DNA of 64,000 bases from assembly GCA_031763025.1 (NCBI GenBank), contig JASSKH010000016.1:4154001-4218000 (forward strand). The letters run 5' to 3'. Position numbers and translations under genes: made by a program. Each line of letters opens with the position of its first letter. Position 1 is the first letter of the stretch. Positions 3,901 through 63,500 of the stretch are shown here, piece after piece. Source of the stretch: Macrocystis pyrifera. Its lineage: Eukaryota > Sar > Phaeophyceae > Laminariales > Laminariaceae. The notes beneath the pieces were generated by a model. That model saw only the letters and a program-made list of their open reading frames with translations. It had not been told where the DNA came from and did not search any database.

Positions 3901-6900
3901 GCAAGTTTTTGTCTCTTGTACCAGTATCATTTTGGCCTTCTGGGGCTTACAGTAGGTCGAGGAGAGCCGTCAAAGCTTTTTCAGAAAACCCCTTGACCTT
4001 TTTTTTTGTTCTCTTTTCACGTTTCTGTTTTCGCCCGCAGATGGAAAAGGCGCGGCTGGAGCGAGCGGCCGAAAAGAACGAGAACTACGTTCGAAGGTGC
4101 CTCCCCGGACCAATACCAACTAACCAACTAAGGGTCGTTTTTAGACGACGGCACAAAAAAAATAGCGAAAAAAAAAAAACTTGCTGCGTTGGCAACATAG
4201 AAAGGGCAAGTCATGCTAAAATTCCACGAATACCTTCTATCGACAACCCCAACAAAATAGCAAAAACCTTGCCATTTCAGCCATGTAACGCCCTCAGATA
4301 TTTATGAAACCCCGTTCGACAGAAACCCGACAGGTAGACGACACCCTCGTGGAGGAATGAGTTGCTTAGAGAGGGATCCAGGCACAAGTTGTAGACCCCA
4401 GAGGTTGATGGCCCTTCCAGTCCGACCATAGTCACCCGTAGGTTGTCTTGGGGAAGCTGTGGCGGCTGTTTGGTTCGGATTGACCTAAGCACCAGCCCAA
4501 AACGGCACCTGTGCCGCACCCACACGGGGGGGTCGTCACCCGCGCCACCAACCCCCTCCAGCAGTGCGGTCAGCACCGCCATCTGCTTTCAACACCTCCA
4601 TCTAACTCTCGATATCTCCCTGTATTGCTGGAGTGCGTGCGAGTCTAGCGCGCCGGCGTGCGGTTTGTATGACCTTGCGTTGGCGGGAATGGTTGCAAAT
4701 GGTAAATCAGATATTAATAGCAATTTTAGCTTCCATAAATTTGCCATCGAGGAGATAGGGAAATATCCCCAAAAAAAATTACAGTTTTTATGTGTTTTTT
4801 TGGCAACAAGTTTTATTTTATGGAAGTTTGCGCAGTTTTTTTTTGCCAAATACGCGTCGTTTAAAACGACCCGAACCAACCAACCAACAACCAGTCAATG
4901 AACCAGCCAATCAAAACAACCAACAATCCAACAAAATCAACCAATAACCCAATCCAATCAACAAGAATGAACCAAGCAACCAACCAAGCCAATCAAATCA
5001 GCCCGTCATCCAACAAAAACAACCAAATCGACCAAGCGACCAACTCATCAACCACCGCAATCAAATAAACCAACCATCCAACAAATTCAACCCATCAACC
5101 AACGAGCCAACTAACCAACCGATCACCCCACTGCCCAGTCAAGAATAACCCCTTTCGACGGCGTGGGCGGTCGGCGACATATTTGGGTCGTTTTATCGCC
5201 GCGTTGAGCCCCGCCTCCCCCTCTCGATCGAGTGATTGATTGATTCACCTTTTTATCTATGGTCTCGATAGACGGCCCCCACTGTCGCCCCCCCCCCCCC
5301 CCCCCCCCCATGGCATGCTCGCTTGCTGGCTTGCTTGCTTGTGCTAAATACCTGCCTGGTACACGACGGTGGTACTGGTGGCGGTACTGCCGCTCTGTCC
5401 GGAAATGTAAGGACGGTCTGGGTATCAAGATTTATTACGGAATGGACCTTACATTTCCGGACAGTGGTATTTATAGTTTTTTCGGCCCCTTGCCGTTCTG
5501 GCATTTAGTAGTTGCCGTGATTTCGTTCTTTCGAGATTTCGTTCTTTGGAGCCCTTCCCTCCCTTGCTCCCCAAGCTATGCAGTCTTTTGTTATTTTTTT
5601 GTTGTTTTTCCCGCACGCCTGTGTTTGTCCCAAGTCTGTGCTGGCGGAGGTCTACCATGGAGAGACAGGAGACTACAGTAGCAGTGCCATAATTGGCGCA
5701 CACCGGGCTGGTCACCGATCCTGGCTTGATGATCTAGATCATTCAGGACAGATAGATCATCTACGAGTATCGGCATGATCTGTATGATCTAGCTCGTGTT
5801 GCGGGTGGGAGCCGTATATTCTGCGTGAATTACGACTATGACGGGGGGGCCTAGTAAATAGGACCTACGATACACAAAAACCTATATATATCCCTATTTT
5901 TACAACAATATTTGGTCCTATTTGCTGTGGTCCCCCGTAATAGAACACGTTTTTCTTGTGTTGGATTCGTAGTAGATGCAGTCGTATACCGGACGTTTTT
6001 GTGTCGGCTCCCGGATATGTGGTATAACCCCGTTTGGGGTGCGCTCCCGGTTGGAAGGCAGATAACGTGGGATTAGTTAGGGTCAGAGATGTGTCCTGTA
6101 CAGCGCACCACCAAAAGGGACAGTAGTGTAGTGTAGACTCCGACGTGGAACAGTGTTTGCCGCCTGTGTCGATGCTACCCTATTAATAGTAATAGTTTAA
6201 GGCTTGTATTCCCCCCCCCCCCCCCCCCCCCCCCCCCGCCCCCAAAGCACTTGTCCGCCCGGTTGGCGCAAACCCGACGTGCTCCGTCCCGGCATTGTAG
6301 GGGATGCGAAGGTCTATGGTCATATGCGACTACGGCCATGCATGATAATGATAATGAGTGCACACACCCCGGTCCGTCCGTCCATCCGTCCGCGCAGAGC
6401 GTGGGTATAAACCCAAACGATCCTTATATTTTCGGACAGAGTGCTCCGCGATAAGAGTGCGCCGCGTTGAGGCACTGTCCCTCCCTCTCCCCCCCGCCAC
6501 CTTACCCTTGTCACCCCGCTGCTTGAGGAGCAAGTGTGCTGTTACGGGAGAGCACATGTTACTATTCAGAACCCAGTGAGATTAAGCTTTGTTCTTACCA
6601 GTCGGCCGGAGGATAAAAAAATACAAAAATCAGACCTAAAATGTGGTGTGTAGGCATATCGGGGGATACCGGCGTTTTTTTTGTTTTTTTTTGTTTTTCG
6701 TCAATCGTGGGTTCTGGTTACCCGTACTATTAATAGAATATGGCCCTCCGTACTACTGCAGGAGGACGCGGTTTGACGCCTTGACTGACCGCCCCTTACG
6801 CGCAGTCATAGCTGCCGCTCGGGAACTCGCGCAGCAGGATGTTTGCAACTGTCGTCAGCTTGTGTGGGTGCGTGTGTGGGATGTTGGTGGTGTTTGTGTT

Positions 6901-9900
6901 GTGTTGGTGGTGGTGGTGGTGGTGGTGGTGTTGGTGTCGCCTGTCCGCCGCGTGCCGGGGGGCGGCTCACAATGCCGATCGCAACGATTCACCACAGGCA
7001 GGCAGGGGGTTCAGGGGTGGGGCCGCGAGCGTTATACTTTATCGGCCAGGCGGAAGAATGGAAGGAATGATCGCTCGCTCGATGGCGCATGCTGCTTGCG
7101 GCGGCGTCATCATTCGGGCGACAAGGCTCATTGCCCGAGCGCGTGCGCACAGCACGTGCACGCGTGGGCGTAGGCGCAGGCGTCCAACACTCGAGAATCA
7201 CTTGGCCAAGGGGGACGGGATGGGCGGGGGGGGCGCGGGGGGGGGGGGTGGGGTCCCATGTTAGTTCTGCGGGGGGGGGGGGGGGGGGGGGGGGGGGGAG
7301 GGGGGTCCCATGTTAGTTCTGCGGAGGGGAGGGATCCCATGTGATTTCTGCGTGCGCGTTATCGGAGAAGCTACCTTCCCTCGGTGGTGGGTGCCATACC
7401 AACCATTTCACACGTCGGACAGATCAGATAGATCATCTAGATCCTACATCCTGCCGCTACGAGCTGTTTGCGCAGGGTCTGTACCGTACGTATCCAACCC
7501 AGGAAACTTATCCTAAGTCGTGTAGAATATGCGGCTCCCGCCCGGTAACATCAGCTACAGATCATACAGATCAGGAATGGATCTATCTGCCCTGAAAGGT
7601 CTAGATCATGATCTATCTATGATCTGTCCGATTTGTTGTATGCATTTTGCTATTTATACTGCAAGTAGCATCGGATTATAATCCCAACTGGTTCGCTCGT
7701 CTCCCAGACGGTGGGTGGAGGTCTAAAAAGGATATTTGCCGTTCTTGCCAATATCATGTGAATGATCCCATCCCCCTACCCCGCCATCCATATGCAAGAA
7801 AATACGCACAAGGTGCCGAAGTACACGCCCCACGAGCGGTTCTTCTTAGCGGGATGCAGCTCACCCTTACATGCGACTCGCCGAACAACTCCAAAGCTTC
7901 GAACCTGGTGCAAGCAAGCAATGTCTGTCTGGTCGGTGAAAACCCGACGTGCTCCGTACCGGCATTGTAGGGATGGGATGCGAGGGTCTATGGTCGTACG
8001 GCTACGGGCCTACATGACAAGGAGTCCCCCCCCCCAACCCCTGTTTTTGTTGATCGAGCGCTGTCCTAGGAGATCGATGGTGGCCACAGACGGCAGAGCA
8101 GGAAGAAGATGAGATAACAACAAAATGAAAATGTAACATACGGAAAAAAAAAAACGAAAAAAGCGCGCCCAAATGTTGAAGGTGCCTCTCTTAGGAGTAG
8201 GAACGGTAGTCCATCTCGAAAGGGATGCGTGGTCAATGGTCAAATGACTAAGGCAAGCAGCAAATGAGTATACCCCCCCCCCACCCCTTCCTTGACCCCC
8301 CTCCCATCTCTCCATCATCACAGGAAAGATGAGATCGCGCGGAGAAAACGACTGGGGTTGCCGTTGGATGGCCTGGTGGAGACGAAGAGGCCCGCGGTGA
8401 ACGGAGGCGGCGGCGGGGGGGGGATGGGCGGCTCGAAACCCCCACCGCGAACGCCGGCACCAGGGGGCGGGGGACAAAGCAGGTGCGTTTTTTTTTTTCA
8501 CTGTTGACTGTTCGCCCTATTTTGGCTGTAGGTGCTAGGCTACAGTATGTACGATATTGTGTCCTCAACATAACAATTAATTTCGTAGTTAATATAATCG
8601 TACTCCATAACTCATGTCATTTCATTTATTTTTTCCACCCATTTAATCCCCCCCCCCCATGATGTACATGCTGGTCCAAAAAAAATATGGTTTTATCGTT
8701 GACTATTTTGGTACCCAGATGGAGCGTCCTCAAAAATTTAGAAACCCGGAAATGCTTTTTTTTTCACCCGTCGAGGAAGAGCGTGCAGCAGCAGCAGCAG
8801 CAGTACACGTATCATCAAGAGGGCTGGGCACTGGATGCCTCAGTCCGTAGCGATTCTTCCTGTGGTCAAAATCAATCGGCATACTGGATTGCAGCAGTAG
8901 ACTGTCTCTCCTCTCTCCTGTCGAGACGCATTTAGTGGGTTACCGTCTTACTGTAAACTAAGGCGTGTTTCTCCGGCGTGCGTGAGATAAAAGTTGCTGG
9001 GAAATATACTGGCCAGATCTACTGGCCAGGTCAATCAGTAGATCACTATTAATATCGCCAGTTACTACTTCCAGTACATACTGGGCCGGTACTCAGCCCT
9101 AATCATCCGGGTTGTGAATAAGGCATGCCTTGGCTAGACTTGACGGCCGCTTTTTAAAATTGATTGTGAGTTAAGCGCACTAACTGACTCTATTAAATGT
9201 ATTTATCCCGAGCAACACACGTCAGGCCACGAACAAAACGAGACAGCTAGCATGAACACTGAAAAACGCAGAACTGCCGCCAAAAAAAAGCTCGCGAGCA
9301 AATCAACTATAGTGAATACCTACCAGGTACCACTCTGTCCTTATTTATAAGGAACTTTTGTATTACATATTAATGTACAAAATGTACTTATATTTAGGGA
9401 CATATTGGTAACTAGTATAGTAATCAGAAACAAATATGGCGTGTAAAGAGGGGGATACATTGTTTTTTAGGCCCATCGTAGGTTCTGCTTTCAACATTAG
9501 CCCCCCCGTAATAGTCGATTAGTCACTAGTCGGCGACCTGTAAGTCAGCCAACACACAACCCTAGTCACCATGCTGAGCTAGCGTGATGTACATGCCGCC
9601 CCCCTGCTTTCTTTTTCGGACCACATCGCCTACTTCGGCAGCCCGGCCCGCTATAATCGTCGCTCATCTTGAACGCATTTTCCCTCTGAAGTCCGCAAGG
9701 GATTAACAGCATGTTTCTTTTCCTCGCTTCTCTTTGTTGCTGGAAACGGTGGGAGTGATGGAAGGCTTTTTCGGATCGTGCTTCTTGTTTCGACATGCCT
9801 GGTAGAACGTTTTTGTAAGTTTTTAACCGCTTTTCCCTCGTGTTCTCCTACGTGCGGGTTTTCGTGGAGAGGGAGGAAGGCGTGCGCGATGACGCCTTTT

Positions 9901-12900: not shown

Positions 12901-13807
12901 CCCCCCCCCCTTTTCTCCACACCCCGCTTGAAAATTACCGTTGTTGTATACCTGGTACGTAGTAGGCATTGTGTTTCTGCTGACCCTTTTCTATCACCCC
13001 AACCCAACCCCAACTTTCCACACATCGGGGAAGATCACGATCTAGCTGATCTAAATAAATCCTACGTTTTTCCGTTGTGGCGTCTAGATCTTATCTGCTG
13101 TCGATCCTATATCTTGCCCTTATGATTTACAGTGGCTTGTATTGTGCAAGAGCCGTATCAGACGTGTGCGTAAGAGCTGTCACACAGATCCCACCCGGCA
13201 AACGTGACGTAGATGTTTAGCAGATCTATGTATATCAATCAGGATTTTCCACGCCCCGAAAGATCTACCTGGTAGATCACCAAAACAGACTAGATCGCGA
13301 ACTGTGGATCTGATTTGATCTGTCCGTTTTTTTTTTTTTTTTGCCGTGTCGCACGGATACCTTCCGGCAAGCATAATCTACGGTAGATATCGCGGTCCGT
13401 ATCAATAAAAATAATCGGTCTGTCCCCCGAAATTTCTACATTCGCCGAAAAATCTAGTTCACGAATTTCGGATCTGATTTTGATAACTGTCACATGTTCT
13501 TGCCGTGTCGTTGGGATCCCATCCGGCAAGCATGATCCATCCACAGTACTGTAGATATCGCAGATTATGGCAGTCGAGACTATGTCTGCCCCAAAAGATG
13601 TACATGTGGTTCACGAAGTGTGGGTATCTTATCTGATCTGACCTGATACGTCCGATATGTGTTAATGTTCGCCCCGCCTCTTCAGGCCGGAGAGGTGGAG
13701 GAAGCGCCCGAGGCTGGTGTCAACGAAGCTTTGCGAGACAAGGGGGAGGGGGGGCAGGGGACGGCGGGGGGGGGAGGAGAGGACCCGCCGCCACCTCCGC
13801 AACCTCC

Positions 13808-13868
<61 letters not shown>

Positions 13869-14254
13869 CGAGAGGAGGAGGAGGAGGGGGGGTGGGAGGG
13901 GCTTGGCAGCGGAGAGTTGCCCCCGTTGCCGAAGGCGTGCGGTGCAGATAAACACCCCGTTGTCGTGCTCAGAAATGTTTACACCAGGGAAGAGTCGGAG
14001 ACCGACCCCAACTTCTTCGACGACCTTGAGGTGCGTTTTTGTTCCCGGCGGCAGGGGATGGAGGAGAGGTTGGGGGGGGGGGGAGGGGGGGGAGGGGGGG
14101 GGGGGGGGGGGGGGGGGCTGGGGAGGGGCAAGGGTACGGAGGGTGGGGTGAGGGGTTGGGGTTTTTGGGGGTTTGAGAACCGGGAGAGGGGGTGGGAGGG
14201 ATTATTATGGAGAGTGAGCTTGGGGGGGATGAGATGGATGGGGTTGGTGGCAAG

Positions 14255-14290
<36 letters not shown>

Positions 14291-17200
14291 GCGGGGAAAG
14301 ACTTCTGATGGCGAGATATGAGACGGAGATGAGCCCGTTGTCGCAGCATGGGTGCTCGTTGATATGAGGACGGGTGCGCTTCTGTCCTTCTATATCCGCG
14401 TGCACGTATCACAGGCATGCGAACGCGGTTCAACGATTTTGGGTAGGGATGGGTGTGCTCCTATCCTTACGCGTCCGCTCGCATGATGGTGCATGTAGAC
14501 CTGGTATGTTGCGGGAGCGCTAACGTGTTTTTTTTGTTTGCGATGGAAATAAGTGTCTGCGTTGTGTTCCTCTTAGTTTCGTGCTTGCGCTGTGGCAAGA
14601 CAAGCAAGCCATTGCGCGCGGCTTGAGTGGGCTTTGCGTGATGTAGCGCACTGTGGGCTAATGATCAATGTCGCATACCGGACTGACAGGCTTTTTGTCA
14701 GACGTTTTCTCTGGTTGGAGTCTGATTTTTTTACTGTCTTTCTTCTCGTGGTGCTCTGGATAATTGATGCATGCCGCGATAGGAATGCACCTATTGCGGG
14801 GGGTCCATAGTTAATAGGACCTATGGTAGACATAAAAACCTGTATATTCACATATTTTTACAAACAAATTTGGTCCTATTTACTATGGTCCCCCGGAATA
14901 GTGCCAGGTAGATTATTAGCCCTGTTTGTACTGCAGTCCCGTTACGGGGACAAAAAAGTAATAGTTCGACTGGGTTGTCCCGAAACGCGACTGCAGTCCT
15001 AAAAGGCTCGCGGCTCCTTCGTCGCTTGAGAAACTCTATACTGTTAGGAAGTCATGAGTAGTAAGTCACCCAGAAAACGGGTTTCCAGAAGAGTGAACGC
15101 TTAACCCGGTGAGAAATCCCCCTGGCGTACGAGGTTTTTATCGAAGACTATTGTAGAAATCAAACGATAAGGCATGCCTTTGTTGGGTGATTTGGGCATG
15201 CCTTATTGGGTGATAAGGCACATGCATTATAAGGCATGCCTTTTTGGGTGATAAGGCATGCCTTGTTGGTGATAAAGCGTGCCTTATTGGTTGATAAGGC
15301 ATGCCTTATTGGTTGATAAAACATGCCTTTTTGGTGATAAGGCATGCCCTATTGGTTGGCACAGCGCCTATACCGGAGGCATTTTTTTGTCGGGATTTAT
15401 CTTGGAAATTCTGGAATTTTCTGCCAAGTAACCCCAGTAACAGACGAGTGTTGTAGGGAGTTTGTTGGGACAATCGTTGATGATTGGCACCACGATCGCG
15501 CCGCCCTTGTCAGACGAGACGAGAGGTGGTGCGCGCGACGAAGAGAGAGACCCCTGTTGCAGCTCGTAAGCTCAGACAATCGACGGAGCAGAGGGCGGCC
15601 CCAACACCATGTTGGTGTGGCGGTGTCTCCCCCCTATTGTGTGTACCTTGTGTGTTTTGGAGTCTACGCTGTGTCTCTGTGAGAGGGTAGAAAGTCGGGG
15701 CCTGCGCAGCCTGCTGTCCCTTCACGTACCCTCATCCGCCAAGAGGCCACAGGCGCAAGTTTTGAGTACGTGCGCGTAGCCAGACCACAGCAACACCTCC
15801 ACCAGACTACAATGCCAGCAGCGGCTTCGTCTCCGTCAATCCGAGCTCTGGCCCTTGCCTGCAGCAGCGGACAAACCCCGTGCTTGCAGTGGCTAGGGCA
15901 CGTTTCCCGTCAAATTTCAAACAGCAGCAGTACAGTAGAAATATTACCACCCTGTCCGGAAGTGTAAGAGAGTTTTAATACTTGTATTATTCCTCAAACA
16001 GTCGTTATATTTCCGGACATAGTGGTAGCACAACCATCACTCTGTCCGGAAATGTATGGAATTGTGCTGATATTAATATCCATAGATTCCTTACATTATC
16101 GGACATAATGGTATCGTTCACGCGAAAAACTCGAAACCAATTCTAAAAAAATGTTTTTTAAAACGAACTCTACCCGAGGAAAACATCCCGATAATCTAAT
16201 GCCTTACAAAATGTTCCCCAGGTATAGGATCGGGGCCTAATGGTTGATATACGGCATGCCTTATTGGTTGATAGGGCATGTCTTGTTAGCTGATAAGGCA
16301 TGCCTTATTGGGTGATGGGGCATAGTTCATTGGGTGGTCGCTCACTTTTGAAGCCCCGTCAGTCAGAAATGTTTTCACGTTTTACAGATCATTGAACAGA
16401 TCATCGATTCCCAAGTCATATTCCAGACGTTCTAGACCTTGCAGGGCAGATTTTTTCCCGATCTGGCGTGATCTACTGTAAGTCCATGTCGCCGATAGCG
16501 ACTTCATGATCTAGTCATAGCACAAGTTTCCTGGGTTGGACCTGTACTAATCAAATCCTTCACAACCTCTGGGCAGGTGAGGAACTAGATGATCTAGATC
16601 ATGACCTGTCCGACGTGTGATAACGTTTGGGCCGAAAAATGCTACTATACCCCTCTCATGGCACGCCTACTTACCCTCGCCTTACTCTCACCTCACCCTA
16701 ATCTTCCTTGACTCTTCTGTATATATGTATGTATGCCTCCTCACTTTTCAGGCGGACATGTTGATGGAGTGCGTCAAGTTTGGGACGGTGATCAGCGTGG
16801 CTACCCCCGAGACTCCCGGGTACTTCGGGAGTGTGTGCGTCACGTTCGCCGCTAGCAGCGGAGCGGACGAATGCGCGGACGCCATGCATGGCAGGTGAGA
16901 AATGAGGGGACGGAGGGTGGGCGGGGTTATCTTAATGGGGGGCGGGGGCGGGGCACTCTTAGTCATGTGACCATTTGACCACGCATCCCCTTCGAGACGG
17001 AGCACCGTTCCTACTCTCATTCCGTTGTATCCATACATTACATGTGTAGATTTTTTTTTGCCAGTATTTTCCCCGTCCTGTTTCGCCGCCTGTGGCCACC
17101 ATCTTTCAGGAGCGAGGGGAGGTACTCGATAGGAGAGATGTAGTCGATCTCATGCATGGCCGTAGTCGTATGACTAGAGACCCTCGCATCCCTACAATGC

Positions 17201-18192
17201 CGGGACAGAGCATGTCGGGGGGGGGGGGCGGTGCGGGGGGGGGGGGGGGGTGGTTTAGAGGGGGGGGGGGTGGCACGGGAGGACGAAAAAAACACAATTT
17301 GCAATTCCCCGCGGCGAGTTTCGAGACAAAGACAGGGGGGGGGGGGGGGACTCATGGTAAAGCCAAGTAAAACCAAAATCACATCGGACAGAAACCCAAC
17401 CCCATTGGTGTGCTTTTTGCTTTTTTACGACGTTTTTAGGAGTGTGGTGTCGTTTTCTCTTTTTTATCGTGCTCCCGTCAGGGGGGGCGTAATTTACCGC
17501 ATCCTAGGCATCGGGCATGCCAGGTACGTGGTACCTGGTATGTGATTGTTTTGGGGTTATGGTTGGATATCAGGTGGTTTGAGGGTGATAATGTACCAGG
17601 TTTTTATCTTCTTGTTCCGGGGGTGTCGCTGGGTGTCTTGGAGTGTGATGGGTTTCCATCGCGGTGTCATGGCCAAGAACAGAGGATGCAGGGGATGGAG
17701 CTATCCGAGCGTGCCGCAACCTCACCTCACCGTACAATACCGTACCACAACGCTCATGACTTTCGGCACAACCTGCCTGATATTGAAATGTCTCCAGCCC
17801 CCGCCCGCCGCCCGTCATCCCACCTTCTACGCACGTGATACGCATATTCCGAGAGACTATACCTGGTACGTATTTCTTCCCTGTTTTTATCTACCATGCA
17901 CAGTTTAATCGTTTTTACGTTTCTTGCGTCCTACGTTCACAGGTGGTTTGACCAGCGGCAAATCGAAGCCCTGGTGACGGGCAAGAAGGTCGTTGAGAAG
18001 GACGAGGAAGGTCCCCCTATGGGACCAAGAAATGAGGGCGGGGGGTTGAGAACAGCCGCAGCGACGGCAGCAGCGGCGGAGGCAGCAGCAGCGGCGGAGG
18101 AGGCAGCGGAGGCGGCGGTGGTGACGACTACCCTGAAGAGGGCTGACAGTCCCCCCCCCACCGACCTTAACAGCTTCTTGGAATCGGTCTGA
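152..18192 (+). CDS. Tat-SF1/Cus2-like U2 snRNP splicing factor, nine exons
   Basis: Joined exons 152-979, 4041-4096, 8324-8482, 10429-10517, 11709-11836, 12293-12361, 13686-14030, 16752-16894 and 17943-18192 give 2067 nt, 688 residues plus stop, with every splice phase matching. Residues 1-276 are Gln/Pro/Ala-rich. An RRM spans about 361-443, with RNP2 VYITGL at 363-368 and RNP1 KGDGLVTY at 401-408. A second RRM-like domain spans about 532-620 and carries the U2AF-homology signature RWF at 606-608 and an RNP1-like GSVCVTF at 584-590. The order RRM then UHM and the strings GLPPDVT and KGDGL match HTATSF1/Cus2, which bind SF3B1 ligand motifs and help U2 snRNP assembly in the nucleus. The long acidic C-terminus of the animal protein is absent; a short Ala/Glu-rich tail replaces it. 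An in-frame TGA at 113-115 lies upstream of the chosen ATG. The family call is firm; the exact 5' end is less so. Confidence 0.88.
1125..1170 (-). repeat. R12 fragment
   Basis: Holds GTCAGCTGTGAG followed by TTGATTGAGTGGTTAATACT, similar to the inverted-repeat arms at 20418/21432. Confidence 0.5.
1270..1356 (+). mobile_element. R2 small inverted-repeat element
   Basis: TCTCCGGAAATGTAAGAGG at the left and CCTTACATTTCC at the right, in intron 1 of gene 1. Confidence 0.65.
1800..1842 (+). mobile_element. R1 fragment
   Basis: GGTCCTGATTATGATGGTCC followed by CCCGTAATA; only the right end is recognisable. Confidence 0.45.
1965..2192 (+). mobile_element. R3 AGTGCCGG element
   Basis: Several AATAGTGCCGGT words at the left, TAATCGCTTGGCGATAT and GATGGGATTACTG in the middle, and CCGGCACTACTGCTGTA at the right. 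Related copies lie at 30438 and, inverted, 49500. Confidence 0.7.
2225..2345 (+). repeat. R13 repeat, copy 1
   Basis: Shares CCGGGTGGGA-CAGGTCG, GCAGGGTCGG-like and CCTGTGAAATT words in the same order with 2855-2975. Confidence 0.5.
2500..2607 (-). mobile_element. R1 element
   Basis: TATTACTGGGGACCATAGTA at the left, CTATGCCCCCCCGTAAT at the right; internal AATACTTGGTCCTA in reverse orientation to the copy at 43833. Confidence 0.75.
2855..2975 (+). repeat. R13 repeat, copy 2
   Basis: Direct, diverged copy of 2225-2345, ending in GATCTGTGAAATTCTCTTGG. Confidence 0.5.
3176..3259 (+). mobile_element. R2 element
   Basis: TTGTCCGGAAATGTACGG at the left and CCTTACATTTCGAGACAG at the right, with a TACCAGGTA word inside. 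Confidence 0.65.
3549..3571 (+). repeat. Poly(G) tract
   Basis: An uninterrupted G run of about 22 in intron 1 of gene 1. Confidence 0.95.
4041..4096 (+). CDS. Gene 1 exon 2: short charged linker
   Basis: Follows the acceptor tcgcccgcag and encodes a Lys/Arg/Glu-rich stretch starting MEKARLERAAEKNENYV. It ends in phase 2 (AG before GTGCCT), a weak donor. The split Arg codon completes correctly with exon 3. Confidence 0.75.
4131..4873 (+). mobile_element. Inverted-repeat insertion in intron 2
   Basis: GGTCGTTTTTAGACGACG near 4131 is matched in inverted orientation by CGTCGTTTAAAACGACC at 4857-4873. Further in, poly(A)/poly(T) blocks and a TTGGCAACA motif are also mirrored. Both flanks are CCAAC/ACCAA repeat sequence. 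This looks like a small non-autonomous DNA element that landed in a simple repeat. No transposase reading frame is visible. Confidence 0.45.
4874..5130. repeat. Degenerate (ACCAA)n-rich tract
   Basis: About 250 bp of loosely repeated CCAAC, CCAATC and CAACCA words without a strict period. It lies in intron 2 immediately after the inverted-repeat insertion. Confidence 0.7.
5288..5309 (+). repeat. Poly(C) tract
   Basis: C run of about 20 in intron 2 of gene 1. Confidence 0.95.
5392..5468 (+). mobile_element. R2 element, best-preserved copy
   Basis: CTGTCCGGAAATGTAAGG at the left and CCTTACATTTCCGGACAG at the right: perfect 18-bp inverted ends enclosing about 40 bp. Confidence 0.85.
5705..5825 (+). 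mobile_element. R4 partial element
   Basis: GATGATCTAGATCATTCAGG, GATCTGTATGATCTAGCTCG and GGGTGGGAGCCGTA, the conserved R4 core, without clear ends. Confidence 0.6.
5837..5942 (-). mobile_element. R1 element
   Basis: GGGGGGGCCTAGTAAATAGG at the left, ATTTGGTCCTATTTGCTGTG and GTCCCCCGTAATA at the right. Confidence 0.75.
6210..6238 (+). repeat. Poly(C) tract
   Basis: C run of about 27, just upstream of an R6 element in intron 2 of gene 1. Confidence 0.95.
6262..6375 (+). mobile_element. R6 element
   Basis: GTGCTCCGTCCCGGCATTGT, then GGTCTATGGTCATATG, CTACGGCCATGCATGATAAT and the end GAGTGCACACACCCC. The poly(C) tail is short in this copy. Confidence 0.7.
7418..7640 (+). mobile_element. R4 element
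   Basis: ACACGTCGGACAGATCAGAT at the left and GATCATGATC plus GATCTGTCCGATTTG at the right; core words GGCTCCCGCCCGGTAACAT and AACCCAGGAAAC are present in reverse orientation. Confidence 0.7.
7905..8040 (+). mobile_element. R6 element with poly(C) tail
   Basis: CAATGTCTGTCTGGTCGGTG, CCGACGTGCTCCGTACCGGC and GAGGGTCTATGGTCGTACGG, ending in GAGTCCCCCCCCC. Confidence 0.75.
8160..8290 (+). mobile_element. R7 element with poly(C) tail
   Basis: CGCCCAAATGTTGAAGGTGC-like start, TAGGAGTAGGAACGG, CTCGAAAGGGATGCGTGGTC, and the end AAATGAGTATACCCCCCCCC. Confidence 0.75.
8324..8482 (+). CDS. Gene 1 exon 3: basic then Gly/Pro-rich linker
   Basis: Acceptor catcatcacag. The exon completes the Arg codon from exon 2, then reads KDEIARRKRLGLPLDG followed by a Gly/Pro-rich stretch. 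It ends in phase 2 (AG before GTGCGT). Reading is open throughout, with flanking phases consistent. Confidence 0.8.
9410..9520 (+). mobile_element. R1b element
   Basis: TAATCAGAAACAAATATGGC and CAACATTAGCCCCCCCGTAA: same plan as R1 but with a different core; near relatives at 40803 and 50215. Confidence 0.55.
10429..10517 (+). CDS. Gene 1 exon 4: RRM beta-1 with RNP2
   Basis: Acceptor gacgaaagcag. Contains NTSVYITGLPPDVTQSKI, the first strand (RNP2) and helix start of the RRM, closely resembling Tat-SF1 family members. It ends in phase 1 before GTGAGC, a strong donor. Confidence 0.9.
10604..10712 (+). mobile_element. R1 element
   Basis: TATTACGGGGGTCCATAGTT at the left and AACTATGGACCCCCGTAATA at the right are perfectly inverted; core CCAAATTTTGTTAGTAAAAA. 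Lies in intron 4 of gene 1. Confidence 0.85.
11028..11052 (+). repeat. Poly(C) tract
   Basis: C run of about 24 after a CCCTCCC-rich lead-in, intron 4 of gene 1. Confidence 0.95.
11270..11305 (+). repeat. Decayed copy of exon 5 acceptor border, copy a
   Basis: TTTTGTCCCAGAGCTGGTTT followed by TCTCTTC, a copy of the real border CCTCCAGAGCTTGTCTTCTC at 11702. Confidence 0.65.
11405..11475 (+). repeat. Decayed copy of exon 5 acceptor border, copy b
   Basis: Intron tail and first 20 or so exon bases are copied: ACCGGATGCGCGTATGTGTC, then TTGCCCCCAGAGCTGGTTTT and CTCAGTACG; the real border has ACCGGATATGTGTGTGTG, TTGCCTCCAGAGCTTGTCTT and CTCTCAGTTCG. Confidence 0.75.
11709..11836 (+). CDS. Gene 1 exon 5: RRM centre with RNP1
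   Basis: Acceptor tttgcctccag. Encodes FSQFGNVKRTKIYR and the RNP1 strand KGDGLVTY, then the second helix. It ends in phase 0 at AAG before GTGCGG. Two decayed copies of its 5' border lie upstream in intron 4 near 11281 and 11448. Confidence 0.92.
12293..12361 (+). CDS. Gene 1 exon 6: end of RRM
   Basis: Acceptor cgcttccggcag. Encodes LNGHEISTGRPIVVTMADF, the last helix/strand of the RRM. Phase 0 at both ends; donor GTGGGC. Confidence 0.88.
12601..12755 (+). repeat. Minisatellite, about 41-bp unit
   Basis: Four copies of a unit containing AATCGGTACGATTTCGAT and TTCGATACTGTACAATCA, in intron 6 of gene 1. Confidence 0.85.
13686..14030 (+). CDS. Gene 1 exon 7: acidic/poly-Gln linker and start of UHM
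   Basis: Acceptor ccgcctcttcag. Encodes an acidic and Gly-rich linker, a pure poly-Gln run, a Glu run, then VVVLRNVYTREESETDPNFF, the first strand and helix start of the U2AF-homology domain. Phase 0 at both ends; donor GTGCGT. Confidence 0.88.
13809..13865 (+). repeat. Coding (CAG)n microsatellite
   Basis: An almost uninterrupted run of about 18 CAG codons in exon 7 of gene 1, encoding poly-Gln between the RRM and the UHM. It is bounded by CCTCCGCAA upstream and GAGCGAGAGGAGG downstream. Confidence 0.95.
14070..14290 (+). repeat. Poly(G) tracts and G-rich DNA after exon 7
   Basis: Two long G runs (about 14080-14117 and 14258-14289) and G-rich sequence between them, on the sense strand of intron 7 of gene 1. 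Multiple GGG runs could fold as G-quadruplexes in the pre-mRNA. Confidence 0.85.
14792..14900 (-). mobile_element. R1 element
   Basis: TATTGCGGGGGGTCCATAGT at the left, TTACTATGGTCCCCCGGAAT at the right. Confidence 0.75.
14918..15012 (+). mobile_element. R10 element
   Basis: TACTGCAGTCCCGTTACGGG, GACAAAAAAGTAATAGTTCG and TTGTCCCGAAACGCGACTGC, then AGTCCTAAAAGG: mirrored ends around a short core. Confidence 0.55.
15012..15125 (+). repeat. Short copy of the AAGTCAT minisatellite element
   Basis: GTCGCTTGAGAAACTCTATA, then only two AAGTCAT-type units, then GAGTAGTAAGTCACCCAGAA. The copy at 32604 has the same edges with more than 20 units. Confidence 0.6.
15165..15360 (-). repeat. R9 GGCATGCC array
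   Basis: Eight or so units of GATAAGGCATGCCTTATTGG, each about 22-27 bp with GGCATGCC palindromes, in intron 7 of gene 1. Confidence 0.8.
15952..16112 (+). mobile_element. Two tandem R2 elements
   Basis: CCCTGTCCGGAAGTGTAAGA to TATATTTCCGGACATAGTGG, directly followed by ACTCTGTCCGGAAATGTATG to CCTTACATTATCGGACATAA. The ends of both copies are flanked by ACCA/TGGT. Confidence 0.8.
16232..16335 (+). repeat. R9 GGCATGCC array
   Basis: Three to four units of GGCATGCCTTATTGGTTGAT. Confidence 0.75.
16385..16620 (+). mobile_element. R4 element
   Basis: Core words GTTTCCTGGGTTGGACCTGT and AGGTGAGGAACTAGATGATC; right end CCTGTCCGACGTGTG. Confidence 0.7.
16752..16894 (+). CDS. Gene 1 exon 8: UHM core
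   Basis: Acceptor cctcacttttcag. Encodes LMECVKFGTVISV and the RNP1-like strand GSVCVTF of the U2AF-homology domain. It ends in phase 2; the split codon makes the Arg of the RWF signature with exon 9. Confidence 0.9.
16930..17020 (-). mobile_element. R7 element, reverse
   Basis: Read on the minus strand: CTCGAAGGGGATGCGTGGTC, AAATGGTCACATGACTAAGA, then a C-rich tail. Confidence 0.65.
17128..17260 (-). mobile_element. R6 element, reverse
   Basis: CATGCATGGCCGTAGTCGTA, GAGACCCTCGCATCCCTACA and ATGCCGGGACAGAGCATGTC, followed by poly(G) at the non-tail side; the usual tail side here reads CGATCTC. Confidence 0.65.
17943..18192 (+). CDS. Gene 1 exon 9: UHM RWF signature and C-terminus
   Basis: Acceptor tacgttcacag. 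Begins with the W and F of the RWF signature, continues GGR-free as DQRQIEALVTGK, then an Ala/Glu-rich low-complexity tail, and stops at TGA 18190-18192. Confidence 0.9.
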
Positions 18193-18549
18193 GGCGACCG
18201 AAAGGTGTTTTTTTTGGAGGCTAACAGTGTGTTTGTAGTGCTCCAAAGTGACTTTCGGTACTCAAAAGTGGCTTCTTGGCGCTCGGAAATGTTTTTTTTT
18301 CGGTGGCTACCTCGAGTTTTTTTTTTGTGACTAAAAGTCGCTTTTTGGTGGCACATGTTTTTCCACGCATTGCCGTGCCATCCCACGCCACCTCCCGCGC
18401 CCCGCTTTTGGTAATCGTGGAAGTGCTGTTGTCTTGTTTTTATGGACGGCTCGGGAGTGCATCTAATTGATAGCTCAGTCTGACGGTTTCGCTGTGCTTG
18501 CCTTGTTCTGATCGGTGGGGTTGGGTAGGGTGGGGTGCTGGGGGGTGTA

Positions 18550-18640
18550 CTAAACTCATGGGGGCATGGGGGGGGGGTACTGCTTCGTTGCCTGCCTTAC
18601 TCATTGACCACGCATCCCTTTCGAGACGGGGTGATGAGGG
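18550..18640 (-). mobile_element. R7 element, reverse, poly(C) tail
   Basis: On the minus strand: GTCTCGAAAGGGATGCGTGG, TCAATGAGTAAGGCAGGCAA, then GCAGTACCCCCCCCC. Confidence 0.7.
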
Positions 18641-21431: not shown

Positions 21432-21499
21432 TAATAAATTTTGAAATACGTCAGCTGTGAGTTCGACTGATTAAATAGTTGATACTGAACTTTGCAATT
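21432..21499 (-). repeat. R12 inverted-repeat arm, right
   Basis: Reverse complement of 20418-20483. It ends just before the acceptor gtaaaattgcag of the exon at 21513, so it forms part of that intron's branch-point region if the exon is real. Confidence 0.7.
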
Positions 21500-21747: not shown

Positions 21748-24700
21748 GTATGATATGATATGGTATGAAGATGATACTATTAATACTTTAAGACCTATGC
21801 CAATGGGAAAGCGAAGTATCGATAAAAAGTTTGAATTCCAAAGATACCCGCCAAAAAAATTTAGAACACGCTTCCTATGGGCACGTTTAGAAAAAAAAAA
21901 AAGTTCCCAACTTTTGGAAAAGCCCGAAAAAAAGAACAATCTGGGGCCGATGTTGGGCCAAGATCGGCTTGAGAAAAACTCAGGCCGATCTTTGTTTCGA
22001 AGCGGCGAGATTCCGAGTCCTCGACAGACATCGATCGACAAAACCAACGATTGCGTCATGAACTCTGAACGGAGTACGCTCGTTAGGGGCTCCGACCCAC
22101 GCTTGGGTCACCGTCTTCACACAATGGCCAGTGACGTGTGGCGGGCGCTGGCCATGCGTACGATAAAAAAAAAAGTAGCCGCTGGTGTGTACAAAACAGA
22201 AGACGTCTCGAATGGCAAAAAACACGCTACCAAGAGCGTTATTCCGTGCTTCGTACACCGTGGCAGATGGTAGAGAAGGCTAGCTTGAAGCGGTAAACTA
22301 CGTGACTGGGGTTTGGGAACGATTACCACGTTTTGTGTTCCCCGCGCCAGCTATACGTAGATGTTTATTACGTAGCAGGTGTCGTGAGAAACTAAATGAA
22401 CGTTCCTTGATGCTTAGTGTAGGAACCCTCGTTATGTTCTACCTGGTATATAGCTTTATCGCCCTTGTAATCCCGAAGCATTCCTAGCGAAATCTTGTTC
22501 GTAGGCGCGTGGTACTATATCATAACAGCAGTGTTGAAATGATTCAAGGAACCAAAGTATTGACCAACTTTTATCCACCCACATTTCAACGAAACCTCGA
22601 TTAACGCTACGACTACAAAGCAAACCGCAGATCAATCGCAAAATGCTGACTGTATAATTCCTAGAGCATGTATTCACTTTCTATCTTCGATGCCGTCATC
22701 TATACTCGTTGGCCTTGCCCGACACCAAGCGGGTTGGCCGTGGGCTGAATCTATATCGAGATCGAGCATCTATCGTCGCACGAGCTGATTTTTATCAGCG
22801 TGTTGACAATTTGCAAGGAGAGAAAACAAATTGCGCCGCCTGCAGCCGTTAGAAAAAAAAAACCGAAAAATCAAACACTTTTTCCTTTTTTTCCCTCAGC
22901 GGCGGTACGAGGATATTTTTGGCTGTTTTTGTCAAGCAATATTTTGGAAAGAAAACTTTTGGACTTCGCGTTTCCTTTGGCATAGGTCTAAGTAAGTTTG
23001 AGCATTTTTTGTTTTTTTTAGTATTAATATTACGGGGTACCTTAGTAAATATAGGACCAAATATTGTTATTAATAGTAAAAAAGGTAAATATAAACCTGG
23101 TATGTTTTTGTCTTAAGGCCGTTTCCTGTGCGATTCGATTTTTGAGCTTCAGATTTTGACCCGATGGCATTTTCAGATATGAACTTGGCAAATCGAAAGA
23201 GTCTTCCTATGCGGAAAGATCAGATTTATTGTGCGTGTAGGGATTCGAGCAAACGCCGAGACCAACTGCTGTTATTGTGGTTTGGCGCCGCGAAGAGACG
23301 CGCTGGGTGCGCTGCCCTGCGCGTAGGACCCAAGCGTCCGAGCCCACGCTGACTGCCTCTGGTCTGGCAGCGAAGAGACGTGGCGAGTGCGCTAGAGTCA
23401 ACCTGTCTTGGTATTTTGTGTTTCATTTTGTGACTGACTGCTACTGCTGCTGTACAGCAGTGTAGTCTACGAGTACGTATCCACGGAGAGGCGCGTGCCG
23501 AGTGCGCTTCTCTTGGTCTCTAGGCCCGAGCCCGCGCCAGCCGACTCTAGTCTGGCCACGGAGGGACGCGCCGTCCGCGCGTCGGGCGCGAAGCAACGTC
23601 GCTATACAGCTTTATTACCATCCAACTCATCGATCGTTCTGCTTCTGTTTGCTGTCGTGGATAACATCTTGAGTTTAAAGAGCATGTCATTTTTCGATTT
23701 GAAAATCTGATGACCCAGGTCGTCGGATTTTGGGCCAAAATCCGACGATTGGGTCATCGGATTCTCAAATCGAAAAATTTCCGTTCGGATTTTGCATATT
23801 TGGACTGCCTGCGTAAGCAGGGTCATTCATTTTTTAGATCGAAAAATACAAATCTGAAGCTCGAAATCGAACCGCATAGGAAACAGCCTTACCGTAGATC
23901 CTATTTACTATTTTTTTTTTTTTTCAATCATCACTTATACTTTCCAGCCTAACTCGTAGGAGGTTTTACCGTCAGCGGTCTTCTTCTGGACAAGCCGTGG
24001 TCACAGGTGTCGTCCCTTCTCCCCCCCGGTACGTGTCTTTATTTTTTTTATCGCGCATAGGGTTCAACATTCCCAGTGCTCGTCGATTTTCATCGAATGA
24101 ATGTACAGCTAACTCACGCTCTCGCGCTTTCCGCTAATCAATTTTATGCAAGAAAAAGTCCCTACGAGCATGCACTCGGTGAGACTCGAACCCACGAAAT
24201 TGATTTGATAGGCTCGCGGACCACCTACCAAGCCACCGGGATCCCCCGTAAAAGTAAAGTTTAGGCATTCAAAGGTCAGAGGGGAAGGCCGGAAGGACAG
24301 GGGAATTCGTACAGCGCGTTTATTTTCACGTGGTTCGTGGTTGTGTGGTTGTATACTATTAATAGTGTTGGGAATCAACAACAAAAAAAACATGATTATT
24401 CTTGAACTAATCAATTATTACGGGGAACCATAGTAAATAGGACCAAATATTGTTAGTAAAAATAGGTATATATAGGTTTTTGTGTGTACGGTAGGTCCTA
24501 TTTACAATGGTCCCCCGTCATAATCACGATTTTTAGTCATGATTATTCATAATGAGATCAACAGGGTCTTCATTTTACGATTATTTTAGCTGTATAGCTT
24601 TCAGTGCAATATTCTAAACGCTAGACAAGTAAAGTGTAGGAATTTTTAGAATGCCCAGTATGTAGTTTACACCAACGAAAAGTGTATGCATTTTAGTGCA

Positions 24701-42569: not shown

Positions 42570-45500
42570 CTGCAAATGTTTCGGTATTCGGCGCAAGGTT
42601 GTCACGATGAAAGAAGCTTTCCCAGTCGCGCGATCAACCACGAACAATTGCCACGTTGCTGCTATCACAGTGAAACTCTTGAGTCAAAGAATACCAACCA
42701 AACGCCTGATTATATCTACAACCACAACCAACCGATTGCTCCTCGAAACGGTTCCCGATCTCTAGTAGGTAGTCTCCATAGCATCGGCCGCCGACGCATG
42801 TGTGTTTCTTCACATTTAACTGTTCGTTCCGCCCATTGACCTCCGGCAAACCCCAGTGTCTGTGCCGGTCCGTCATATACCCTGGACGGATGCCTAACTC
42901 TGTGATCACAAGCTACGATAGAGCAGTCATACTTCGAAATACATCGGATACTATTTATAGACCATGTAATGACAACGTACTCGATACGAAATGCAAAGTT
43001 CAACTATTACGGCGGGGCGGGGGGGGGGGGAGGGGGTGTACTCATTATCATGCATGGCCGTAGTCATATGACCATAGACCCTCGCATCCCTACAATGCCG
43101 GGACGGAGCACGTCGGGTTTTCACCGACCAGGCAGACATTGCTTGCACCAAGCGCGAAGCGCCGTGGGGTATTGGGCGAGTCGCATGAAGGGTGAGCTGC
43201 ATCCTACTAGAACCGCTTTAGAGGCGGATTTTCTTGCTTATGGATGACAGCATCAATGAATTGATTTAATTTCCGGCGTGGCCACTTCCAGAGACAGCAA
43301 TGGGTATACTATATAGCTGCCTCTTGGGTGCCTCACCATGTACATACTACGTGATACGATCATCCCCCTTGTGCGGAGGGAAGGTTCTCCCCGCACAAAT
43401 ATGATCTAACTTGACCGCCAGTCGTGGTAACCGCAAAAAAAAAAAAAAAAAAAAAAAAAAGTACCTCACGCAGTGAGAGGCGTGTTTTACAGCGTCGTCG
43501 CCATCCGACGTCAACCCAACCTATAGATGCCGGGTATGGTTTGGAGGAGGGGGGGGGGCATAGTACTCAGAACGCACGATGGACCCCAAAAACATACATT
43601 AAAAAAACGACTACTGGTTCCGATTACTAATCGTGTTCCCCGCGTATTAACGCAAGGTTTTGCAGCCGATCGGCCTACAATAAAAAACACCATATATCGA
43701 CATAGCAAAAACAACCCCCACGAGAATTAATTGACCCAGGGTCGACAGCAGCAATGTAAAGGAGAAGAATCGAATTGACATTTACCTTGCACCATTGTAT
43801 GCGACGCCTTCTATGACAGGGGGTACGTCTCTTATTACGGGGGACCATAGTAAATAGGACCAAATATTGTTAGTAAAAATAGGTAAATATATAGGCTTTT
43901 GTGTACACCTTAGGTCCTATTTACCAGGTCCCCCGTAATATATGTTATCCACGACAGCAAACGGCAGCAGAACGATCGTGACCCTATCACGGAGGCACCG
44001 AGAAGTAGGTTTCTCGTTCCCATTTTTCCCCAAATCTGACAGTCGAGGAACAAATGGGATGAGGGGGCGAGGACCAAGCGAAACGTAGAAAACATGCCGA
44101 CTGTGGCAGACGTTATGCGTGCTTCGTTAGACGAAAGCGTATGGTAACTACGGTGGGGGGCGGGCTGCTGGTATCTGAGAAAATATAGTGTGGGAGACCA
44201 GCTACATAAACGCTCCGCCTTTGTCGCCCCTCAAGCACGACATAAGCGTATGTTAGTTCCGGAAGAACCGCACGGAGACACGCTACAACACTGCGTGCCG
44301 ACAACCAGGTAAACGCGTTCCGGGTGCATCACACCGCGATCGCATACCTCAGCGCGTATCACCGTCAGAGGGGTCTGGGAAATCGTACACGACGTTCCCA
44401 CGGGACAACCAACGGTAGCAGAACCCCTAATCAACTAGGCTACAAGTTTGGGGACAATAAGGAATAGAAGGCACCCGCAAACAGGATACGCATCAAAAGA
44501 GCGACGACATTGAGATAAGAGAAGGGTCAACAAGTATGAGTGTGATCTCATGCCGCAGCAGAGAGAGGCCTCATTGATCCCAAACTATATACGAATTAAC
44601 GTACGACGCGATGTTACAACAGTAATCTGGACCAGAAAAGAGGGGACGCCAGCAGGGTGGATCCCTTTTCGGGAAAGCCTCCTTGTTGTATGGGGAGACA
44701 GTGATTGAGTATCACTCCGTGAGCGATGTCGCAGCTCTACAACAGCACGACAAAGTAGAAAGAGGCTAGGAAAAAAAACAGACTATCCCGCCCGCCCGTC
44801 GTTGGTAGCGAGGTGTACCGTCGACAACGACATCAGTTTTGTTAGTGTTTATTTTACCGGGGTACCTACTCTCTGCGACGAGGTGCCGCGTTGATAGCTA
44901 GACAACCATCGCGGGAGTAGTAACCCTGGGTGAGAGTCTCCGGCTGGTCGCAGCAGGAGGCCTCATTACTCCCAAACTATATACGAATTAACGTACGACG
45001 CGATGTCACAACAGTAATATATGTTATCCACGACAGCAAACGGCAGCAGAACGATCGATGAGTCGGATGGTGACCCAGCTGTTTAGCGACGTTGCTTCGC
45101 GCCCGACGCGCGGTCGGCGGGCGGGGCGTCCCTCCGTGACCAGACGACAGGCAGTCGGCTGGCGCGGGCTCGGGCCTAGAGACCAAGAGAAGCGCACTCG
45201 GCGCTCACCTCTCCATGGATACGTACTCGTAGACTACACTGCTATACAGCAGCAGCAGTCAGTCACATTATGAAACACAAAATACCATGACAGGTTGACT
45301 CTAGCGTACTCGGCACGTCTCTTCGCCGCCAGACCAGAGGCAAATTGCCTTGGCTCGGACGCTTGGGTCCTACGCGCAGGGCAGCGCACTCAGCGTATGT
45401 CTTCGCGGCACTAAACCACAACAACAGCAGTTGGTCTCGGCGTGTGGTTGCTCGAATCTCTGGAGGCACAAAATCTGATTTTTCCGCATAGGAAGAGTGT

Positions 45501-60500: not shown

Positions 60501-63500
60501 GGCCACGAAGAAACAAACGCTCTAGGAAGATCAACAAACGACGTGGAATTGCCGCAAAACATCGCACGCAACGAGTAACAGCAATGCCAACGTATGTAGC
60601 CACCTAAATTAACTAGTCGGCGACGTATACATGTATGGCTATACACAGATACCAAGTATAGCCAGCCAACTACAGCACAGCCCTACACTTTGTGCTATAG
60701 CATGGTGTTTGTGATACGCCTAACCGATGATCTCGCTATTCAGGCCCCGCGTACAGTTTTTCTTTAAATCGTTTTTGGTTCGAGGTGTCGGGCCCATCGA
60801 TAAGGTGGGGTGAGATGGACGAGCAATAGTAGAAGGCGAGCACAGACGGTAGAGGAATGATGCGCCAGTTCAGAGAGCATTAAAACAGGGTCGACTATAA
60901 TCATTTGCGAGATATTTTTGTTCGTTTTAATGCGACGAAACAAATGCTCACCTGAGTTCTACGAAACGCGAGTTGATTTTCACCGCCAGGGCTTCCATCC
61001 CCTGTCGATCGAACATGATTCTCTGGCAGAAGTCGGTGTAGTCGATCGCTCCGTCGCCGTACCTGATTGGCCAGCCGATTGATCGTTAGTCTTCGCCATC
61101 AGCCGGTTGGTCGTTAGTCTACGTCAGCAGATTGGTCGTTAGTCTACGCCACCCGATTCGGTCGTTTACCTTCGTCAACCAATCGGTCGTTAGACTCCAT
61201 CAGCCGATTGGTTGATAGTGCACGTCAGCCAATTGGTCATTAGTCTACGCCAGCCGATTGGTCAGCAGTCTACGTCAGCCGATCGGTCGCTAGTCTAAAG
61301 CACCGCACAAAAAATGTTCGTGCAGCTTGCAAGGTGCTGAAGTTGCCTTGAGTAGAAACCTTGATAATTCCACTCTACAACCCGCACCTCGGAAACGAAA
61401 AATCAGGGAGGTCTTTTCGCACCTCAGACAGATCATCTATAGATCATCGATTCCCACAGTTCATGATCTAACATATTTCAAAGCAGATAGATATATTCCC
61501 GATCTACAGCACGGCAGTAGTATGATCTAGCTCACGTTGCCGGGTGGGACCCGTACAATCTGCATGATCTACACGTTTCCTGGTTTAGATTCGTACTACA
61601 CAACCGCAGGTGAAGAATTAGATGATATATCTGTACATTGATCAGATAGATCATGATCTGTCTGATCTGTCCGAGGTGTGTAAGCTTTTGAACGAACGCG
61701 AATCGCCGAGAAAAAGCGGTCGAAAAAAAGGTTCGCATACAGGAACACGACAACAAGAGAAGAAAAAAAAAAAAAAACGAACCTACTGTACACTCGTAAA
61801 AAGCAGGGTTTCACGGTGCAGTTTTTTGTTGGTTGTGGTGCGGCGCTGTGCTGTGCGGTGTGGTGCTGTGCGGTTTGACCGAACCGCACCCGTACCGTAT
61901 GGTTTTACTTTTGACAAAACCGCACCGAACCGTACCTTGAGATTATCCAAAAATGTAATCTGCACCGCACCGCACCGCCCGAACCGTACGATTCTCCGGA
62001 ACTATAATCCGCACCGCAGGAGTCTGCAAACAGAAAAACCGCACCGCGGTTCGGTGCTGCACCGTGAAACGCCTTGCTGAAGATTTTAAAATAATAACAA
62101 AACGGGCCCTCCGGGCGGAAATTCTGTACGGGTGTATGTAAAAAACGTTTTTAGTACATACTTGGTTTTAGTATGTATCCCCACCCCGTTATCGTAGGGA
62201 CACGAAGGTCTATTATGGTCGTACGACGATCGGCATGCATGAGATGAGTACGTCAGTACACCCCCCCCCCAATGGGACTTGTTTATGTATTACGGGGGAC
62301 CATAGTAAACAGGACCTACTGTACACACAAAAAACTATATGTTTCCCTATTTTTATTAGCAATATTTGGTCCTATTTACTGTGGTCCCCCGTAATAATAT
62401 ATGGGAAAAAAGTAGCGAGCGCCCAAATGTTGGAGGTGTCACTGTTAGGAGTAGGAATGGTGCCTCCGTCTCGAATGTGATGAGTGCTCAATGATCGTCA
62501 AATGGCTAAGGCCTAGGGCAAGTAACGAATGAGTACCCCCCCCCCCCCCCTTCCAATTAATGAGTTCACCCCCCCCCACCCCTCCCCAACACACACATCA
62601 GTACCCCCCCCCCCCCCGGTCATACGACTACGGCCATGCATGATATCGAGTGCACCCCCCCCCCCCCCCCCTCCAATGGTCGCGGGGTATCGGATTTTTA
62701 TTTTTGCATGTTCCTCTGACCCACCTATCGAAGAGACGTCTGATGTGCTCTGTCTCCTGCCCGGAGAGGTACACGCCCAGCTGCTCCATGACCGACGAAA
62801 AATCTTCGACCGTCACCATCCCCCTTTCGCAGACGATGATAATGATGATCGTGATCATCATCATGGTATCGAAGCAACCATAAACCGTCGAATCAAGACA
62901 ACAGGGTCGGGATGGGGTCGTGGGTAGGCACTACTGGTTGATTGAAGTTTGAGCCCGCCAAAACGAAACGCCTCAATATGAGCAATCCTTGAAACCTTGT
63001 TCTGACACCACCGAGCGTCCTTGAGCAGCATTGAGCATAGGCCAGTTATGTAGGGCTCGGTATAGTGCTTGCAGCTGCGCACGATTTTTTAATGTGAGCT
63101 TCACGGTCTTATTTATTTTGGGGATATTTCTTACTTCGTGGTCCCGGAGTCTAGTCTACTATTAACAGTAGCAGCTTCAGCACCCATCATTGTAAGGTGA
63201 TCTGGTATCGTCTGAGCTTTTGGGTGCGGCAGTGCTGAGCTCGTGTTAAAAGTTGGCGTGAGGCGTATGCATCTGTTCCAGGGGTCGTGGAGTTCTCCAT
63301 CAAGAGGCGAATGATTTCCGGGGTACGAAATGTTACTTGTTTCCTTCAGATATGTCCGCCGGAAGAGACAAGCATTTGGACCTTTGTCTTCGGATTTTTA
63401 AAGGAAACCTACCTCTCTTTCCGCTAGAATTTCACTTTGGTACGCTGGAAAAATACGAGCAGTAAGTTCCTTTTTCCCAGGGCTGTTCACGGGTCTGGTG

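Follow-up and report, generated by a model that had tools for sequence, protein, structure and literature searches.

A LINE and a SINE-like partner in the kelp Macrocystis pyrifera share a poly(C) tail and favour C runs as insertion sites

The window analysed here is a stretch of 64,000 nucleotides (nt) from the giant kelp Macrocystis pyrifera (assembly GCA_031763025.1, contig JASSKH010000016.1, positions 4,154,001 to 4,218,000), which holds copies of two repeat families, R6 and R7, that end in a run of C. An earlier note on this DNA had taken both for possible retroposons with C tails and had named twelve copies. All 12 are present on the strands it gave, within about 30 nt of its positions. 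The C run with its consistent strand is real in most of them, a pure run of at least five C lying within about 30 nt of the end in 9 of the 12, but the copies named 6262, 17128 and 38755 reach C4 at most. R6 is described below as part of a putative short interspersed element (SINE) and R7 as part of a long interspersed element (LINE). The features of the window are as follows.

6252-6351, plus strand: R6 SINE-like fragment, without a terminal C run of at least 5
7826-8025, plus strand: R6 SINE-like fragment, then C10
8055-8270, plus strand: R7, the LINE 3' end (LINE_L030 3232-3440), then C10 at 8273
16958-17219, minus strand: R6 fragment (17139-17219) and downstream R7 LINE fragment (16958-17016), with C12 and C16 upstream
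18574-18629, minus strand: R7 LINE 3' fragment, then C10 (G run at 18568)
23987-24096, plus strand: empty-site paralogue of the SINE-like insertion in locus L026, with an unbroken C7
28511-28629, plus strand: R6 fragment flanked by C11 (28495) and C7 (28631)
28637-28666, plus strand: 30-nt SINE-like fragment immediately after C7 (28631)
38765-38798, minus strand: R6 fragment with a C4 tail only
43011-43034, minus strand: interrupted C tail of the R6 copy named 43013, G-rich on the plus strand
43035-43528, minus strand: near full-length SINE-like element of 494 nt, the R6 copy named 43013 (BLAST, query 3-503 of 520)
43549-43558, minus strand: C10 on the 5' side of the same copy, within a TACTATG(C)n repeat
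62181-62254, plus strand: diverged R6 fragment, then C10 at 62261
62395-62539, plus strand: R7 LINE 3' end entering C15 (62536)
62618-62654, plus strand: 37-nt SINE-like fragment flanked by C14 (62604) and C17 (62655)

The genome searched is an assembly of 537,376,219 bases in 223 contigs. The copy survey covered 277 kb of sampled loci (labelled L and a number), in which 113 R6 and R7 copies were kept. Loci L020-L028 were mostly picked from a genome-wide list of C8 tails, which biases the tail lengths there; selection took no account of upstream runs. A less biased subset of loci that were not picked by tail comprises 174 kb and 54 copies (17 LINE-type and 37 SINE-type). An enlarged set with six extra loci and fresh annotation, from which the tandem duplicate L012-4936 was dropped, gives 108 tailed copies and 87 junctions. 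The SINE-like annotation used two reference copies and two short tails, and the copy boundaries are based on BLAST, with a possible error of a few bases. Homopolymer lengths are error-prone in long-read assemblies, and exact C-run lengths are uncertain here.

Coding sequence was found upstream of R7, which is the 3' end of a LINE of about 4.4 kb with a predicted apurinic/apyrimidinic (AP)-type endonuclease and reverse transcriptase. The copy in L029 has an open frame of 856 amino acids, which closes 5 nt short of the C tail and holds the reverse transcriptase domain (RVT_1, E = 2.9e-29); the best sequence matches of this domain among solved chains are R2 and L1 ORF2p. The endonuclease lies upstream of the reverse transcriptase in L034, where Exo_endo_phos_2 matches with E = 9.9e-7 (29.1 bits, Pfam cut-off 27.4) in a broken frame whose pieces were searched separately. 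Two copies of about 4.4 kb, L031 and L034, start at the identical base. A Pfam search of the LINE C-terminus gave nothing useful, solved structures searched with the endonuclease part gave no useful match, and a tblastn search found no related loci in viral contigs. With a protein piece from L020 as query, the genome gave 5,554 first-look candidates, and the 150 that were scored have identities of 90-100%.

The LINE has a very short 3' untranslated region (UTR): the open frames of L029, L032, L035 and L036 stop at a TGA 5 nt before the C run, and in L033 that stop is altered and the frame continues into the C tail. Because the LINE frames stop just before the C tail, the GAGTAC motif overlaps the LINE stop codon. 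The distance from stop to C run is 3 or 5 nt in 11 LINE tails (L008 and L025 being one place), a spacing that is partly built in, as the search pattern itself required TGAGTA and a C run. The reverse transcriptase, the AP-type endonuclease upstream of it, truncated copies anchored at the 3' end and target-site duplications, which together characterise a LINE, are all present. The earlier note had suggested a search for a LINE with the same 3' end, and this LINE, which ends GAGTACG(C)n, is what that prediction called for.

R6, in turn, is the 3' end of a SINE-like element of about 0.5 kb that shares the tail of the LINE. The two bodies had been called unrelated in the earlier note, which is wrong: their last 54 nt align at 80% (E = 1e-7). 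R6 and R7 are thus a related SINE-like/LINE pair, in which the C run is also an insertion target. An alignment of seventeen full-length copies of the SINE-like element spans about 500 nt; it starts TA-rich, with GGGTTGGGTTGG, and runs through GAGTAC to the C run. It is short (about 520 nt) and has no long frame, the longest stop-to-stop frames of two reference copies being 78 and 81 amino acids; with the 3' tail in common with a LINE, these are traits of a SINE. We keep the label "SINE-like" because no head derived from an RNA polymerase III transcript (tRNA, 5S, 7SL) was recognised: ARAGORN found no transfer RNA in seven loci, and an Rfam search of one copy gave a best E-value of 2, with nothing near the gathering score. 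The element also has an internal T run of variable length after GGTACCG, 26 long in the window copy (A26 on the plus strand near 43435), and such a run should stop polymerase III. A young subfamily has its last bases doubled, with TCTCTCCTATCGAGTACAC following the first GAGTACA. Two arrangements of these copies were seen in passing. On the minus strand of L012, at about 4377-5218 in the sense direction, tandem SINE-like copies are linked by C17-C20 runs as near-identical repeats, and on the minus strand of L025 a C69 run just before sense position 4456 is followed by a 43-nt copy, with many nested fragments around.

The shared ending is abundant in the genome. The pattern GAGTACACCCCCCCC occurs 4517 + 4507 times, compared with 8 + 2 for the reversed pattern, and the 18-nt tail TCTCTCCTATCGAGTACA, a pattern without a C run, occurs 2196 + 2187 times, compared with 0 for its control. 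These counts are totals, whereas the place-by-place comparison uses the matches listed, in the range common to both lists; among these, C8 or more directly follows GAGTACA in 36 of 43 young SINE-like tails. A rough extrapolation from the 54 copies in 174 kb, all but 10 kb of which come from one scaffold, gives about 167,000 copies genome-wide.

In the 277 kb, a run of at least five C lies no more than 25 nt from the end in 94 of the 113 copies, and the less biased subset gives 43 of 54. The first pure C run after the end measures 5-46, with a median of 12, in a set of 81 copies that contains the tandem duplicate L012-4936. Longer runs weakly track higher identity (rho 0.22, P 0.04, n = 88), a comparison that the earlier note had proposed and whose outcome is expected if C tails decay. 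Copies are anchored at the 3' end and their 5' truncation is scattered, from 26 to 954 nt for the SINE-like element (lengths above about 530 nt are merged neighbours) and from 24 to 3449 nt for the LINE. Past the tail, the flanking sequences show no relation to each other: 40 of 3160 pairs are alike, and 5 of 1540 once 24 of the 80 flanks, those containing a further copy, are set aside, these five being taken as local duplications. A terminal inverted repeat was looked for in one reference copy and not found, 497 of 500 shuffles scoring equally well. Scattered truncation, unrelated flanks, the missing inverted repeat and a LINE with the matching end bear out the suggestion of SINE-like retroposition with a common 3' end and a variable C tail. 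The two outcomes that had been named as fatal to it, a C run inside a longer conserved unit and ends formed by inverted repeats, were both looked for and neither was seen.

The C run is found on the other side of the insertions as well. At least five C stand just upstream of 75 of the 94 tailed copies (17 of the 18 full-length and 58 of the 76 truncated ones), compared with 5.3% and 3.1% of random sites (20,000 positions, searched over the same spans). For G, A or T, upstream runs of at least 6 number at most 1, with no enrichment. The less biased subset agrees (6 of 6 full-length and 27 of 37 truncated, among 43 tailed copies), as does the enlarged set (18 of 19 and 65 of 89, 83 of 108 in total). 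The pair has a defined target, and the preference for a C run is strong and not absolute. As a separate observation, a short palindromic repeat resembling a miniature inverted-repeat transposable element (MITE), with ends like CTATTACGGGGG.CCATAG / CTATGG.CCCCCGTAATAG, occurs in the window at about 62289-62396, 2589-2610 and 5835-5887, in L012 at 8153-8174 and in many of the loci sampled; its C run is apparently used as an insertion site.

Target-site duplications, another check that the earlier note had called for, extend past the C run in a minority of cases, above the permutation level, while most junctions show less. At least 3 identical bases beyond the C run are seen at 12 of 87 junctions (5.23 in permutations, 15 of 5000 of which reach this number), at least 4 at seven (2.60; 44 of 5000), at least 5 at three (1.08; 471 of 5000) and at least 6 at three (0.35; 28 of 5000). 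Clear duplications comprise 11 nt in L020+6121 (C7 TCTCCCTCGCC), 8 nt in L029 (C9 TCGTAACT), where the last four bases are also LINE sequence and the match is part microhomology, and 8 nt in L033 (C14 GAGGTGAT), where the same holds for the last bases. TCCAATG was found by eye in L035.

Empty sites give a view of the target before insertion. In L026, a 59-nt SINE-like copy lies inside the C run of another repeat, and its empty paralogues in the window (23987-24096), L024, L016 and L018 carry an unbroken TTCT(C)7 or (C)8, with 79-81% identity over the joined flanks. The host repeat, GGACAAGCCGTGGTC...CCTTCT(C)7GGTACGTG, is a family with several copies in the 277 kb (window 23987-24096, L016 7044, L018 6142, L024 4245 and L026 8250-8476). 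The window copy at 43035-43528 stands between TACTATG(C)10 and GTAATAG, and paralogues read TACTATG(C)7GTAATAG or nearly so, a comparison with only about 22 nt of support.

Taken together, we assign a probability of about 0.86 to the reading that the LINE and its SINE-like partner both carry a terminal C run and make most of their insertions in C runs already in the genome, by target-primed reverse transcription with a nicked G run as the primer on the C-ending RNA. This reading draws on the LINE domains, the common tail, the C tail, the 5' truncation, the excess of upstream C runs, the minority of duplications and the empty paralogues. The LINE endonuclease would nick a G run on the G-rich strand. 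This would release 3' G residues, from which reverse transcription would start once they had paired with the C end of the RNA, and a staggered second cut would duplicate the C run. Our best guess for the C end of the RNA is that the C run of the mother copy is transcribed, with slippage. The SINE-like element, judging from the common 3' tail, probably uses the enzymes of the LINE. The new C run left by each insertion could be used again as a target, and about a third of the insertions with an upstream run (27 of 81) lie behind another copy.

Several observations weigh against this reading. In the enlarged set the upstream C run is missing from 24 of 89 truncated copies and 1 of 19 full-length copies, and the full-length LINE L031 also has none; 19 of the 113 copies have no C run of 5 at their end. 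At 75 of 87 junctions fewer than 3 identical bases lie beyond the C run, so the duplication there is at most the C run itself. The long paralogous empty site exists for one insertion only, the other case being the 22-nt comparison in the window. No conserved RNA fold of the common tail was found. Finally, the lengths of the upstream run and the tail are uncorrelated (rho about 0). If the tail were the duplicated target run, the lengths should agree, which counts against the simple model and led us to reject the tail as a mere copy of the target; slippage could explain the difference.

The best of the alternatives, which we nevertheless consider unlikely, is that the C run is only a tail of retroposition, non-templated or made by slippage, and that the upstream runs are mostly the tails of older neighbours rather than a preferred target. 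It gains from the broad range of tail lengths (5-46) and from the upstream runs that do lie behind another R6 or R7 copy: 27 of 81 by BLAST, 24 by a text rule that miscalled the window copy and missed several, for which reason the count was redone by BLAST, and 30 by either. At least 51 of the 81 upstream C runs, however, have no recognised element before them, the empty-site paralogues hold an unbroken C7-C8 and no element, and some duplications comprise the C run together with unique bases.

A little less probable again is an endonuclease-independent route, in which breaks at fragile G/C runs are patched with C-ending RNAs. Poly(G) tracts are prone to breakage, and the 75 junctions with so little identity beyond the run fit such patching; the LINE nevertheless encodes an AP-type endonuclease, and several duplications reach 4-11 nt past the C run. 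A DNA transposon or MITE with an internal C tract, to which the shortness and very high number of R6 copies might point, was rejected as very improbable on the tests of truncation, flanks (5 of 1540 alike) and inverted repeats, and the homologous tail sits on a reverse transcriptase gene. That the pattern is pyrimidine-rich sequence arising by chance, an artefact of assembly or noise from microsatellites, for which the errors of long reads in homopolymers might speak, has next to no probability in the face of the genome-wide counts (9,024 vs 10, and 4,383 vs 0 for the 18-nt tail), the window shuffles and bodies conserved over about 500 nt.

With target-primed insertion into C runs as the preferred reading, a broader proposal can be put forward tentatively, at somewhat short of even odds: that this LINE lineage has replaced the A/T rules of L1 with C/G ones, so that endonuclease, RNA end and priming would all work on G/C homopolymers, and that the element would create its own targets. 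With a fresh C run added by each insertion, the spread of poly(C)/poly(G) tracts in the kelp genome would feed itself. In the window, 43 runs of at least 8 C or G were counted, compared with 1.55 in mononucleotide shuffles. The idea that many such runs are tails is partly right: 14 of them lie within 40 nt of a recognised copy; the other 29 lie farther away and could be targets, decayed tails or neither. A cluster of very long G runs (G33, G24) at 14072-14289 has no recognised element within 2.6 kb. If the kelp pair does rely on a poly(C) tail and on C runs as targets, the rule that pairs tail and target can be rewritten in another base, some of the poly(C)/poly(G) tracts in a kelp genome are accounted for, and a reverse transcriptase with a possible preference for G-run primers becomes available for study.

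The usual tail of a LINE is poly(A) or a short repeat, the tail probably helping to decide at which sites the RNA can prime, and the best-known copy-and-paste elements of animals end in A runs. L1 has an AP-type endonuclease and a reverse transcriptase, a target strand that pairs with the tail, duplications that start with the tail base, and 5' truncation. L1 and Alu resemble the kelp pair in the homopolymer tail, the two enzymes, the 5' truncation, the target that pairs with the tail and the duplication that begins with the tail base. L1 and Alu depend on poly(A), which is described as all that mammalian L1 and SINEs have in common (PMC3747384, consulted in part). The kelp pair, in contrast, has C in place of A, a common tail of 54 nt and a LINE stop just before the tail. 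By analogy, the proposed mechanism would be the L1 scheme with C/G replacing A/T.

LINEs of the RTE type, such as BovB, have an AP-type endonuclease and a reverse transcriptase, almost no 3' UTR, and SINEs that carry the LINE 3' end. The kelp LINE shares all of these, a likeness in traits. The RTE tails of flowering plants are given as (TTG)n or (TTGATG)n in the parts of PMC3747384 consulted, unlike the C run of the kelp LINE. In the kelp Saccharina japonica, LINEs of the Jockey, RTE, L1 and CRE types have been reported, several of them young, and the main text, as far as consulted, does not mention a SINE (PMC4421812). LINEs that insert into simple repeats include Togen, in (TG)n, and some HERO families, treated among lineages with a restriction-like endonuclease in the portion consulted of PMC4640811; the kelp LINE resembles them in its simple-repeat target and differs in having an AP-type domain and a C homopolymer as its target. 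LINE/SINE pairs with stringent 3' recognition have a common 3' tail, according to the same part of PMC3747384, whereas the common tail in kelp is LINE coding sequence with poly(C) after it, in which no conserved stem-loop was found. A ciliate DNA transposon has a poly-C run in its inverted repeats (PMC9942856, consulted in part). The open-access literature searched, judged by titles and abstracts, contained no LINE or SINE with a poly(C) tail, in a search where the bracket spelling is unsearchable and Repbase is outside the scope. Tail-sharing LINE/SINE pairs, poly(A)-tailed pairs and LINEs that target microsatellites are thus already known, and what is new is a poly(C) tail together with a C-run target.

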